Position numbers and translations under genes: made by a program. The notes under the pieces are model-generated. The model saw only the letters and a program-made list of their open reading frames with translations, was not told the origin of the DNA and ran no database searches. Of a stretch of 64,000 nt of DNA, positions 23,825 to 33,173 are shown piece by piece. The stretch is from Halosolutus amylolyticus. Its GTDB lineage: Archaea; Halobacteriota; Halobacteria; Halobacteriales; Natrialbaceae. Every line of letters begins with the position of its first letter. Position 1 is the stretch's first letter. The stretch spans positions 372,001 through 436,000 of the forward strand of contig NZ_JALIQP010000004.1 in assembly GCF_023566055.1 (NCBI RefSeq). Direction: 5' to 3'.

Positions 23825-23899
23825 GCTCCGTTGGTGTAGTCCGGCCAATCATTTCGGCCTTTCGAGCCGATGACCTGGGTTCAAATCCCAGACGGAGCA
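23825..23899 (+). tRNA. tRNA-Glu (UUC)
   Basis: A 75-nt cloverleaf. Acceptor GCTCCGT pairs with ACGGAGC, discriminator A. The anticodon stem TCGGC/GCCGA encloses loop CTTTCGA with anticodon TTC. The T-arm is CTGGG-TTCAAAT-CCCAG. CCA is not encoded. A TATA-like TTTTTACT lies about 30 bp upstream. It is followed by units that copy its 3' arm. Confidence 0.95.
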
Positions 23900-24005
23900 C
23901 TTCTTCGCGAACTACTTCGTGAGCGAAGAATGCGACCCTGGATTTGAAGTAGAGAAACGCGAGCGATAGCGACCGTTGCCCCAGAGTTCGAACCCAAGAC
24001 GGCGC
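23900..24005 (+). repeat. tRNA-Glu tail unit (two hairpins ending in a tRNA 3'-arm copy)
   Basis: Directly after the tRNA: a hairpin with arms TTCTTCGC/GCGAAGAA (about 23902-23930), then TGGATTTGAAG, an inverted copy of the T-arm. A GAGCGATAGCGACCG spacer follows, and then a diverged direct copy of the tRNA 3' arm at 23986-24005 (GTTCGAACCCAAGACGGCGC against GTTCAAATCCCAGACGGAGC in the tRNA). The copy is followed by a T-run. The design equals that of the units after tRNA-Ser. Confidence 0.7.
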
Positions 24006-24082
24006 GTTTTTCGACGGGTAAACTCGCGAGTCGCAACTGTGGGGCAGGGTCCGATGCCGCAATACGCGAGCGATAACTCGTC

Positions 24083-24517: not shown

Positions 24518-24627
24518 CGGCCGTTCGAGCCGATGACCTGGAATTTGAAGTAGAGAAGTCCCAGCCCTGGGCGCGACCGAATCGAACGACCGGGGACGTC
24601 TTTGCGTAGTTCAACTCCGGACGGAGC
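24518..24627 (+). repeat. Split copy of the tRNA-Glu 3' half
   Basis: 24518-24541 matches tRNA-Glu 23855-23878 (anticodon loop to T-stem) with one mismatch. 24609-24627 matches the T-loop to acceptor end (23879-23898) with a few changes. Between them lie 67 bp that start AATTTGAAGTAGAGAAG and end GTCTTTGCGTA, a fold-back carrying an inverted T-arm. No 5' half is present, so this is not a functional tRNA. It lies about 85 bp before the permease gene. Confidence 0.75.
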
Positions 24628-24711
24628 GTTTTGCTACGGTCGACGCCCCGAAGCTGTCTCCGGGGGAGAACTTTTGTCGATCGAACACGTGCGGGAAGAT
24701 GGCACAGACCA

Positions 24712-29653: not shown

Positions 29654-32344
29654 ATGACACTGCATAACAGGGACGTTCGGCAGGACGTCCGCGAACTCGG
29701 GGCGTTGCTCGGGGAAGTCCTCGAGGATCAGACCTCGCGACGGTCCTTCGAAACCGTCGAATCGTGCCGGCGTGCAGCGATCGACTACCGTGCCGACGAA
29801 CTGGAGTCGCGGGAGCCGCTCATCACGGAACTCGAGGGGCTGTCCCCCCACGAACAGCGGATCGTCGCGCGGGCGTTCACGACGTACTTCGAACTGATCA
29901 ACCTCGCCGAGGAACGCGAGCGGGTCCGATCGCTTCGAACCGAGTCCCACGAGGGGACCCTCGCGGACAGCCTCGAGACGGCGGCCGAGGAACTCGGGGA
30001 GACCGATACCGAGACGGTCGAACAGGTGCTGGACGACGTCCTGATCGAGCCCACTTTCACGGCGCATCCGACGGAGGCCCGTCGCAAGACGGTCAAGTCG
30101 AAGCTCCGGACGGTCTCGACGTACCTCGAGACCCTCGACGAGCGGCTGTTGACGAACAAAGAGTCGGAGCAGGTGTGGCGGGACATCGACGCCGAGGTGA
30201 CGAGCCTGTGGCAGACGCCGCAGGTCCGGCGACGCCAGCCGGAACCCGAGGACGAGGCCCGAAACGTCCAGTGGTACCTCGAGAACACGCTGTTCGACGT
30301 CGTCGGCGAGGTCTACGACGAACTCGCCGACGCGATCGACGAGGAGGTCGAGGGCAACCTCGAGATTCCGAAACTGTTCGAGTTCCGCTCGTGGGCGGGG
30401 AGCGATCGCGACGGGAACCCCTACGTGACGCCCGAGGTGACGGCGAACACGCTCGAACGCCAGCGCGAGGTCGTCCTCGAGAAGTACCGGGAACAGCTCA
30501 AGCGCCTCTCGGGCGTATTGAGCCAGGACGGGAGTCGTATCGACGCTGGTTCGGAGTTCCAGGCCTCGCTCGAGGAGGACCTCGAACGACTGCCCGGGAG
30601 CGCCAGGACCGCCGAGGAGCGCTACCCCGGCGAACCCTACCGGCAGAAGCTCAAACTGATGCGCGAGCGCCTGCAGCGCGTCGGCGACGTGCGTCCCGGC
30701 GGCTACGACGACGTCGACGAACTGCTCGAGGACCTCGAGTACATCGCCGACAGCCTCCGGAACAACGGGGCGGAGGTCGTCGTCGACGCCCACGTTGATC
30801 CGATCCGCCGGCAGGTCGCCACCTTCGGCTTCTCGCTTGCCAGTCTCGACCTGCGCGAACACCAGCAGAAACACACCGACGCGATCGCAGAGGCCCTCGA
30901 GTCGGAGGGGATCGACTACCACGCGTTCTCCGAGGACGAACGCGTCGAGTGGCTGACCGAGGCGGTTCTCCAGGACGAACCCGTCATCGACCTTTCCGAC
31001 ACCGAGGATCTCTCCGACGCGTCGACCCGCGTCCTGACGCTGTTCGATAGTCTCGCCGAGTGGCAAAGCGAGTACGGCGTTCACGCGATCGACACCTACT
31101 GTATCTCGATGAACGACGAACCGAGCCACGTTCTCGAGGTGCTGTTCCTCGCCGACCAGGCGGACGTCGTCTCCCTGCCGGAACACTGCGGGATCGACAT
31201 CGTTCCCCTCCTCGAAACGGAGTACGCGCTCTCCGGGGCGCGGCGCATCATGGGCACCCTCTTCGAGAACGAAGCCTACAGTCAGGCCCTCGAGGCTCGC
31301 GGTCGGACCCAGGAGATCATGCTGGGATACTCCGACTCGAACAAGGAGAACGGCTTCCTCGCGGCCAACTGGTCGCTGTACAAGAACCAGCGCCGACTGG
31401 CCGAGATCTGCGACGACCACGACGTGACCATGCGGCTGTTCCACGGCCGCGGCGGCTCGATCTCCCGGGGTGGCGGTCCGATGAACGAGGCCCTGCTCGC
31501 GCTTCCCAACTCGTCAGTCACCGGGCAGGTCAAGTTCACCGAACAGGGCGAGGCGATCGCCGAGAAGTACGCCAATCCCCGGATCGCCGAGCGAAACATC
31601 GAGCAGATGGTCAACGCGCAACTCCGATCGCGGCTGTACGCGATGGACCAGCCCGAAGAGGAGATCCTCGAGGAGTGGATCGACGCGATGGAGACGATGG
31701 CCGACGCCGCCCGCCAGGAGTACCGCGACCTCCTCGAGAGCGAGGGCTTCGTCCAGTACTTCGAGCAGGCGACCCCGATCACCGTCATCGAGGACCTCGA
31801 CCTGGGGTCGCGACCGGCGTCGCGAAGCGGCGAACGCACCGTCGAGGACCTGCGGGCGATCCCGTGGGTGTTCTCCTGGACTCAGTCGCGGTGCATCCTC
31901 CCCGGCTGGTACGCCATCGCGACGGGCGTCGACGCCTATCTCGACGATGGTGGGTCGATGGAGACCCTCCAGGAGATGTACGACGAGTGGGCGTTCTTCC
32001 AGACCACGCTCGACAACGCCGCGCTCTCGCTCTCCCGGACTGAACTCGAGATCGCCGACCAGTACGCCGACCTGGCCGACGACGACCTCCGCGATCGGTT
32101 CTTCCCCCGACTGACCGACGAGTGCGAACGCGGTGCCGAGTTGATCAAGGAGATCGGCCAGCGCGAGGAACTCCACACGCGCGACTGGCTCGGGGAGAAC
32201 CTCGAACGGCGCAACCCCTACGTCGATCCGCTGAACCTCCTCCAGACCTACCTCCTCGATCGGACTCACCGGACCGACATCGAGGAGCGGACGCTCCGGC
32301 TGACGGTGAAAGGGATCGCTGCCGGGATGAAGAACACCGGCTAA
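29654..32344 (+). CDS. ppc: Phosphoenolpyruvate carboxylase
   Basis: An 896-residue bacterial-type PEPC that fixes bicarbonate onto phosphoenolpyruvate to give oxaloacetate and refill the TCA cycle. Diagnostic motifs are FTAHPTEARRKTV, GYSDSNKENGFLAANWSLY, FHGRGGSISRGGGP with the mobile catalytic loop, and QGEAIAEKYANP. It ends AAGMKNTG; the final NTG matches the conserved C-terminus. ATG 29654 is chosen because ATTTTTAG lies about 27 bp upstream, predicting a leaderless message; the frame is open earlier without family similarity. It is monocistronic. Confidence 0.97.
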   Translation: MTLHNRDVRQDVRELGALLGEVLEDQTSRRSFETVESCRRAAIDYRADELESREPLITELEGLSPHEQRIVARAFTTYFELINLAEERERVRSLRTESHEGTLADSLETAAEELGETDTETVEQVLDDVLIEPTFTAHPTEARRKTVKSKLRTVSTYLETLDERLLTNKESEQVWRDIDAEVTSLWQTPQVRRRQPEPEDEARNVQWYLENTLFDVVGEVYDELADAIDEEVEGNLEIPKLFEFRSWAGSDRDGNPYVTPEVTANTLERQREVVLEKYREQLKRLSGVLSQDGSRIDAGSEFQASLEEDLERLPGSARTAEERYPGEPYRQKLKLMRERLQRVGDVRPGGYDDVDELLEDLEYIADSLRNNGAEVVVDAHVDPIRRQVATFGFSLASLDLREHQQKHTDAIAEALESEGIDYHAFSEDERVEWLTEAVLQDEPVIDLSDTEDLSDASTRVLTLFDSLAEWQSEYGVHAIDTYCISMNDEPSHVLEVLFLADQADVVSLPEHCGIDIVPLLETEYALSGARRIMGTLFENEAYSQALEARGRTQEIMLGYSDSNKENGFLAANWSLYKNQRRLAEICDDHDVTMRLFHGRGGSISRGGGPMNEALLALPNSSVTGQVKFTEQGEAIAEKYANPRIAERNIEQMVNAQLRSRLYAMDQPEEEILEEWIDAMETMADAARQEYRDLLESEGFVQYFEQATPITVIEDLDLGSRPASRSGERTVEDLRAIPWVFSWTQSRCILPGWYAIATGVDAYLDDGGSMETLQEMYDEWAFFQTTLDNAALSLSRTELEIADQYADLADDDLRDRFFPRLTDECERGAELIKEIGQREELHTRDWLGENLERRNPYVDPLNLLQTYLLDRTHRTDIEERTLRLTVKGIAAGMKNTG

Positions 32345-32452
32345 GGTCGTCGCCATAGCCCTTCGATCGGGTGCGGGCGGCGAACGTGACTCCCTGGCAT
32401 CCCTGCCAAAAATCGAAACGGGTAAAAACATCACCCGGATAGATAGGAGTGA

Positions 32453-32537
32453 GCCGAGATAGCCTAGCCCGGCCAAGGCGGCAGATTCGAAATCTGCTGT
32501 CCTCACGGACTCGGGAGTTCAAATCTCCCTCTCGGCG
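32453..32537 (+). tRNA. tRNA-Ser (CGA)
   Basis: An 85-nt class II tRNA. Acceptor GCCGAGA pairs with TCTCGGC, discriminator G. Anticodon stem GCAGA/TCTGC encloses loop TTCGAAA with anticodon CGA. A long variable arm (TGTCCTCACGGACT region) and T-arm GGGAG-TTCAAAT-CTCCC follow. CCA is not encoded. A TATA-like TAAAAACA lies about 27 bp upstream. A tandem array follows immediately. Confidence 0.95.
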
Positions 32538-32831
32538 CTTCTACGGCGACCAACAATGGCGAGCGCCGCATAGCGGCGCGAGTCACTCGGTCGCCGCGAA
32601 CGGTGACGGAGATTTGAACGAGAGAAGACGTAGCGCGACCGCAGGGAGCGACCGTCTTCGCGTTGTTCAAATCTCCCTCTCGGCGCTTTTCCAGCAACAA
32701 TTCGATGAGCGCCGCACAGCGGCGCGAATCATTTCGTTGCTGGAAAACGACGTCGGGGATTTGAATGAGACCGAGGTTCTGCGAACGCAGTGAGCAGGTT
32801 CTCGGGCGTAGTTCAACTCTCCCTCTCGGCG
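32538..32831 (+). repeat. Tandem tRNA-Ser tail array (two full units)
   Basis: Two units of 148 bp (32538-32685) and 146 bp (32686-32831). Each holds hairpin 1, with a core GAGCGCCGC-AYA-GCGGCGCGA (32561-32581; 32707-32727) and longer outer arms such as TTTTCCAGCAAC/GTTGCTGGAAAA. Each then has an inverted T-arm (GGAGATTTGAAC or GGGGATTTGAAT), a spacer, and a direct copy of the tRNA 3' arm (32665-32685 identical over 21 nt to 32517-32537; 32811-32831 with one change). Confidence 0.85.
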
Positions 32832-33173
32832 CTTCTTCGAGAACTCGTCGGGGAGCACCGTATCGCGGTGCTTCCCACCGAGCCTCGCAATACGATCGCC
32901 ACGGATATCGCGAGCGGCACGGGTATCCCGATCGGAGACGGTGGATCGATCGGCGGTGATCGGTCGGCGACCGTCTCGCTGGACCTGGTCACGATCCGAT
33001 CGAGGATCGCCGCGATCGGGATTCTTCGGGGTCCTGTCGGCGAAATCGACCTTCCGAATCCCCGTCAACTGCAAGGTGATTTTTTATTCGCCCGGGGCTG
33101 GTCATCTGTCCTGTCAGTAGCTACCAATGGTCGCATTCTACGACGGCATAACGGTCTGGAGAGAGGGGTATCG
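32832..33173. other. Third partial tail unit and Fe-S gene promoter region
   Basis: 32832-32890 repeats hairpin 1 once more, with stem GAGCACCG/CGGTGC replacing GAGCGCCG/CGGCGC by paired changes; its second hairpin and tRNA arm are missing. The rest has no credible gene. A TATA-like TTTTTTATT near 33079-33087 probably drives the downstream Fe-S protein with a leader of about 60 nt. Confidence 0.6.

Follow-up and report, generated by a model that had tools for sequence, protein, structure and literature searches.

tRNA 3' flanks are usually regarded as short featureless trailers or as landing sites for mobile elements. In the window analysed here, the whole stretch of 64,000 nucleotides from Halosolutus amylolyticus, the tRNA-Ser(CGA) gene is followed by a tandem array that carries copies of its own 3' arm. 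This raises the question of whether the array is a local duplication, the trace of a mobile element, or a structured feature that belongs to tRNA genes more generally.

Architecture of the array behind tRNA-Ser(CGA)

The array consists of two units, each arranged in the order first hairpin (H1), inverted arm, core hairpin and direct copy of the 21-nt tRNA arm, and it ends with a third H1. The copies of the arm (32517-32537) are spaced by 148 (exact copy) and 146 (one change), and the coordinates and periods given for them in the initial annotation were all reproduced. The parts, in order, are:

32453-32538, + strand: tRNA-Ser(CGA), source of the copied 3' arm at 32517-32537 (ARAGORN; RF00005)
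32544-32596, + strand: unit 1, H1 (first hairpin) carrying YGAR motifs in tandem, directly 3' of the T-rich trailer (z -6.3)
32605-32619, + strand: unit 1, inverted arm GACGGAGATTTGAAC, complementary to T-stem and T-loop of tRNA-Ser (pairing, covariation)
32620-32664, + strand: unit 1, core hairpin of type A (GAGAGAAGACG...CGTCTTCGCGTT) with a GA/GCG internal loop (70 bits)
32665-32686, + strand: unit 1, perfect direct repeat of the tRNA-Ser 3' arm (32665-32685) plus the next C, then TTTT (sequence match)
32687-32747, + strand: unit 2, H1 hairpin (z -7.5)
about 32754-32766, + strand: unit 2, inverted arm CGGGGATTTGAAT, degenerate (sequence match)
32767-32810, + strand: unit 2, core hairpin of type B (GAGACCGAGGTTCTGCG...CGCAGTGAGCAGGTTCTCGGGCGTA), which occurs at 25 tRNA species (72.7 bits)
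32811-32832, + strand: unit 2, direct repeat of the tRNA-Ser 3' arm differing at one position (32811-32831), plus the next C (sequence match)
about 32838-32886, + strand: terminal H1-type hairpin, 3' of the last copy

The inverted arm of unit 1 is complementary to the tRNA arm at 14 of 15 positions. An inverted T-arm before each copy and a separate GC-rich hairpin in each unit had been described at the outset. The GC-rich hairpins are the H1 hairpins at 32544-32596 and 32687-32747; the inverted T-arm is present and forms the inner portion of a more extensive inverted copy, which weakly reaches the acceptor strand. Between Ser units, identity was 95% for the arm versus 71-73% for core and H1. 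When Rfam families were searched over 32300-33100, the tRNA alone reached the gathering score.

The other tRNA gene of the window, tRNA-Glu(TTC), is also followed by units:

23825-23900, + strand: tRNA-Glu(TTC), the window's second tRNA gene, with units downstream (tRNA search, arm census)
23937-24006, + strand: tRNA-Glu unit 1, inverted arm, core and degenerate direct copy at 23986-24006 with 5 mismatches (40.5 bits)
24518-24628, + strand: tRNA-Glu unit 2, 0.6 kb downstream, direct copy at 24609-24628 (28.2 bits, weak)

In unit 2 of tRNA-Glu, 24 nt of the tRNA-Glu 3' half are joined at the T-stem to an inverted T-loop, a core and a direct copy; this fusion unit is perhaps a birth or recombination intermediate. 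Among the units of the window it is the only one to keep such a stretch of the tRNA 3' half. The idea that a unit is a longer 3' half of a tRNA was rejected, as no general homology to the own tRNA was found 5' of the inverted arm (permutation p 0.26-0.42). Behind tRNA-Leu(GAG) of the same genome (L052), a copy at +202 comprises a longer 3' part of tRNA-Leu, with an unrelated hairpin inserted exactly between the T-stem and G53.

Occurrence in the host genome and across haloarchaea

For a census of the host genome, the best match of each tRNA's own 21-nt arm was determined within 300 bp downstream and 200 bp upstream of 46 tRNA genes, and at most 5 mismatches in 21 were counted as positive. Downstream matches were exact for 11 genes, had 0-1 mismatch for 15, and had up to 5 mismatches for 24. 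No copy was found in the 200 bp upstream of the 46 genes, where the best match had 8 mismatches, and control arms of other tRNAs seldom matched the downstream flanks; these two controls rule out chance repeats. The 24 genes include Asp-GTC, where the match is merely the second tandem tRNA gene, and Leu-GAG with its different kind of duplication. With tRNA-Pro(CGG), missed by the census and added later, the tRNA genes whose own arm recurs in the 300 bp behind them number 25 of 47. Two copies are present at Ser-CGA, Met and Gly-GCC (the second Gly copy being degenerate), and two degraded ones at Lys-CTT. Searching the genome at the DNA level with the array itself retrieved five further tRNA genes (Leu-TAA, Val-GAC, Gly-TCC, Arg-CCT and Val-TAC).

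A typical unit runs from a T-rich trailer through H1, a spacer, the inverted arm, the core stem and the direct arm copy to another T-rich trailer, with a median period of 130 bp and free of genes. The arm copy begins at G53, next to the T-loop, lacks CCA, and is usually followed by a T-rich run like the tRNA itself. Paired YGAR motifs were found in H1 of 201 of the 226 units. The core hairpins fall into several types, here named A to E, which recur from one tRNA to another; of these, type B (GAGGTTCTGCG...CGCAGGTTCTCGG), found at 21-25 tRNA species, has nearly invariant flanks and a variable tip.

A covariance model built from 17 core hairpins of the host genome was then used to determine the distribution of the units. 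It matched all 125 Natrialbaceae genomes (2-31 matches each) and 376 of 392 genomes of the order Halobacteriales (338 of the 345 good ones), with zero matches in about 166 genomes from elsewhere in the phylum. Within the host genome, every strong match lies at a tRNA 3' end. Two strong hits seemingly without a tRNA, which would have suggested a dispersed element, were explained by proline tRNAs: one adjoins tRNA-Pro(CGG), and the other belongs to tRNA-Pro(TGG), from which an integrative element has pushed it 2.6 kb away. Among 85,000 named species, the type-B core pattern occurred in 69 places, haloarchaeal in all but one contig; the exception, a Curtobacterium contig with no tRNA near the match, is likely due to chance. 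At 61 of these places the pattern lies behind a tRNA, with an arm that differs from the tRNA's own by no more than 6 mismatches. Two matches are located on haloarchaeal megaplasmids. A viral origin was considered and rejected, as the 28 viral contigs with a pattern match to the right-end motif contained no unit by the model; phages gave no match of the model either. Directly upstream of one strong unit (L115 in genome G328) we noticed an intron-containing tRNA gene, at about 1336-1440, that ARAGORN had missed.

The units are confined to tRNA 3' flanks and spread across haloarchaea. Their occurrence in the own genome, in the family and throughout the order refutes a one-off duplication, and similar arrays, which the initial annotation had proposed to look for at other tRNAs and in other strains, are present at both levels.

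The initial annotation had also set the array apart from simple integration scars, and a genuine scar in the same genome indeed looks different. An integrative element that encodes a truncated integrase (Phage_int_SAM_1) and bears a 16-bp repeat of the tRNA end has inserted between tRNA-Pro(TGG) and a pre-existing unit. In this element (L216, C1:899500-904600 of the own genome), the N-terminal domain of the tyrosine integrase ends at the 16-bp copy of the tRNA 3' end, an arrangement to be expected if the integrase gene is split upon integration. Two ORFs within the element appear pilin-like, as judged from their sequence.

Folding of the units and turnover of the arrays

Each unit contains an inverted complement of its arm, and hence folds as a T-arm helix, extending weakly into the acceptor part, that is closed by a conserved core hairpin. 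In the 17 core hairpins of the host genome, inverted and direct arms paired in 86.7% of cells and showed 38 two-sided changes versus 14.8 in shuffles, a significance inflated by the relatedness of sequences that are not independent. The covariation score of the two arms was 0.333, versus 0.056-0.151 for slid versions, and fell off sharply as soon as the partner arm was slid by one column. At T-loop position 57, loci of tRNAs with A57 had U in the inverted arm in 130 of 149 cases and those with G57 had C in 35 of 38; covariation of the inverted arm with the T-loop of its locus was strong over 240 distinct units (Fisher p = 6e-24). Over T-stem plus acceptor, the inverted arms of the own genome matched the resident tRNA more closely than other tRNAs (p = 5e-5). 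For the acceptor part alone, the fit to the own tRNA gave p = 2.5e-4 in the own genome and 0.013 in other genomes, with modest to weak energetic support for acceptor pairing (p = 0.006 and 0.067). Pairing of the inverted arm is strongest beside the core and weakens outwards. In the core stem, two-sided changes were found at 4 of 4 pair positions. The array had been called tRNA-templated in the initial annotation: the data bear this out for the pattern, arm and inverted arm tracking the tRNA of each locus, and do not extend to the mechanism.

Strand asymmetry of the fold was evaluated for 209 units. As RNA, the tRNA-sense strand was more stable than its complement in 88% of them, by a mean of 5.1 kcal/mol, and the G-U share was 8.3% in sense versus 4.0% in the complement; tRNA genes, taken as control, gave 79% and 2.6 kcal/mol. 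The more stable folding of the tRNA-sense strand favours an RNA reading and points to a transcribed RNA. A single-stranded DNA intermediate could be an alternative source of a similar bias. In H1 by itself, G-U pairs are more frequent on the complementary strand, and the strand bias of H1 thus rests on GA mismatches. The T-loop helix alone displayed no strand bias in 240 distinct units, wobble pairs being about as frequent as A-C mismatches.

At one and the same tRNA, unit number and module content vary between species. tRNA-Ser(CGA) is 94-100% identical in nearly all Natrialbaceae genomes, and the 71 predictions of this gene in the family (70 loci, one being a likely spurious second prediction in L172) had no countable copy in 25 cases, one in 26, two in 15, three in 4 and four in 1. 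The array grows and shrinks at its tRNA, as the initial annotation had suspected for growth. Given that 25 of 71 lack a countable copy, the unit is dispensable at any one tRNA; some of these loci hold degraded units, and degenerate and truncated units are common. The same H1 and core modules are put together in different ways, with ABA arrays and mosaic joins among related genomes (L175, L189, L196, L199/L201, L186/L190). In tandem unit pairs, it was the proximal arm that resembled the tRNA more in 22 arrays and the distal one in 2, the other 28 being ties. Such better preservation of proximal arms would be expected if the tRNA arm recombines with its copies, or if new units insert on the side nearest the tRNA.

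Relation to known systems and possible explanations

In E. coli, RtT (RF00391; RttR b4425) is made of repeats behind tRNA genes that end in the tRNA's own 3' arm. The inverted arm closes an outer helix around shared core hairpins, and the haloarchaeal units have the same organization. To our knowledge, the tyrT/RtT repeats are little understood and their role is still unclear. Relatives of RtT are present in Pasteurellaceae (PMC4986893), rtT-like elements have been considered as possible attenuators (PMC2965389), and, according to Bosl and Kersten (1991) as cited in PMC4986893, an RNA is released from the tRNA transcript and linked to the stringent response. Our comparison covered nine annotated E. 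coli stretches. The tyrT repeats of strain K-12 gave four RF00391 matches (133-138 bits), and in the RF00391 consensus the outer helix is formed by pairing of the inverted arm with the tRNA arm. Similar units with the arm of their tRNA lie downstream of the tRNA-Arg genes (argV/Y/Z/Q region), and an RF00391 match (47.3 bits) downstream of lysV ends in the Lys arm. RtT-like units with tRNA-specific arms thus occur in K-12 (L293, L298, L290) beyond tyrT/tyrV.

RF00391 itself found no match on the haloarchaeal units, neither in the window at 32300-33100 with E up to 10 nor, at gathering score, in three further loci (L189, L196 and L262). Sharing the architecture without matching the model, the haloarchaeal units are best described as RtT-like. 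They differ from RtT in the sequence of their cores, in an arm that starts at G53 without CCA, in the separate H1 hairpin within the unit, and in the fraction of tRNA genes affected, about half of all in the host. Tips with YGAR...YGAR (tandem G-A mismatch) recur in H1, in core hairpins and in the E. coli RtT core, and may constitute a binding motif. A functional precedent for an RNA from a tRNA 3' spacer is the annotated small regulatory RNA 3'ETS-leuZ of E. coli (b4759); no copied tRNA arm was found at leuZ. In the open-access literature, to which the search extended (subscription papers being outside its scope), no earlier description of the haloarchaeal units was found, and they are apparently undescribed.

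Taken together, what was first seen as a single array is a widespread and probably RNA-level feature of tRNA genes. That the units are structured RNA-level elements of RtT-like architecture is in our view fairly likely. For the full account, in which they are structured RNA cassettes at the tRNA 3' side, an archaeal counterpart of RtT kept matched to the tRNA by recombination, we consider the chances to be even. Under this account the units would be transcribed as an extension of the tRNA. As each unit reproduces the tRNA 3' end, 3' processing by tRNase Z, termination at the T-run, or both might follow each copy and yield the tRNA together with small hairpin RNAs. The inverted arm would lock the copied arm and keep it from competing with the true 3' arm for the 5' acceptor strand, and released hairpins might engage T-arm-binding factors or other RNAs as decoys or sponges. 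Array size would change as the tRNA arm recombines with its copies, by which the nearest copy would be kept identical to the tRNA. Decoy RNAs, already suggested in the initial annotation, would be compatible with the predicted strand-specific fold. The T-run right behind the tRNA may end transcription before the units. The processing and decoy step is the doubtful part of the account.

Two groups of DNA elements resemble the units in part. Scars of tyrosine integrases duplicate the tRNA 3' end 3' of an intact tRNA (archaeal review PMC8371274), and a direct repeat of the tRNA 3' end flanks the haloarchaeal element as well. However, the units are gene-free tandem repeats of about 130 bp with inverted arm and conserved cores at half of all tRNAs, and their body is not independent of the target: the inverted arm tracks the local tRNA. 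The core itself is common to different tRNAs. Haloarchaeal MITEs, PATEs and small mobile repeats (catalogue PMC3119063) are likewise short, palindromic, multi-copy and gene-free, but they are classed by fixed ends and by relation to transposons or terminal repeats, while the units are tRNA-adapted and lie at tRNA 3' ends. A mobile DNA hairpin that deposits a displaced tRNA 3' end at every insertion, so that repeated insertion builds arrays, is nonetheless a possibility of some weight, though an unlikely one. It would account for copies that start exactly at G53 by the T-loop, a region in which tyrosine integrases are known to have attachment sites (PMC8371274), for the tRNA-proximal position of the newest-looking arms (22 vs 2) and for the recurrence of core modules at many tRNAs and in many families, and its single-stranded DNA intermediate could explain the strand-biased fold. 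Yet strand exchange into another tRNA would bring along the wrong 3' arm, and arms and inverted arms track the resident tRNA. The model had no match in the 28 viral contigs with the right-end motif and none in phages, no free copy was found, all strong matches in the own genome lie at tRNA 3' ends, and for units near-universal in the order no common mobiliser was identified. The satellite mobile element suggested in the initial annotation is likewise conceivable, although neither a mobiliser nor a viral or free copy turned up.

It is less likely still that the arrays are functionless products of tandem duplication, with a small number of ancient seeds, each a tRNA 3' end with a hairpin, being copied, lost and shuffled by recombination or template switching at the arms, and with the match to each tRNA reflecting concerted evolution only. 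Zero to four copies at one tRNA, ABA arrays and mosaic units in related genomes, common degenerate and truncated units and a best-homogenised proximal copy are all as expected from such a process, which leaves unexplained the persistence throughout the order, the nearly invariant core type B, the compensatory changes at 4/4 pairs of the core stem and the bias of the fold towards the sense strand. Finally, spare tRNA 3' ends might divert integrative elements from the tRNA gene or serve as a template for its restoration. Integrative elements do use these tRNA ends, as at tRNA-Pro(TGG), but the element there used the tRNA and not the copy, and neither the inverted arm nor the conserved core hairpin would be needed, which makes this purpose very improbable.

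For haloarchaea, these data mean that an entire archaeal order maintains hairpin cassettes, each specific to its tRNA, behind many of its tRNA genes, with an architecture like that at E. coli tyrT, and the arrays provide a natural record of recombination by which copies stay matched to their tRNA. Coming back to the reading as RNA cassettes, it is conceivable, if somewhat short of likely, that haloarchaea and gammaproteobacteria share a class of hairpin RNAs mimicking the tRNA tail, which would bear the 3' arm of the tRNA co-transcribed with them, would have a role in maturation, surveillance or regulation of their own tRNA and would be held in register by recombination. If this is true, E. 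coli RtT would be one bacterial case of a general system operating tRNA by tRNA. Genetically tractable haloarchaea are one setting in which the role of such tRNA-tail mimics can be probed.
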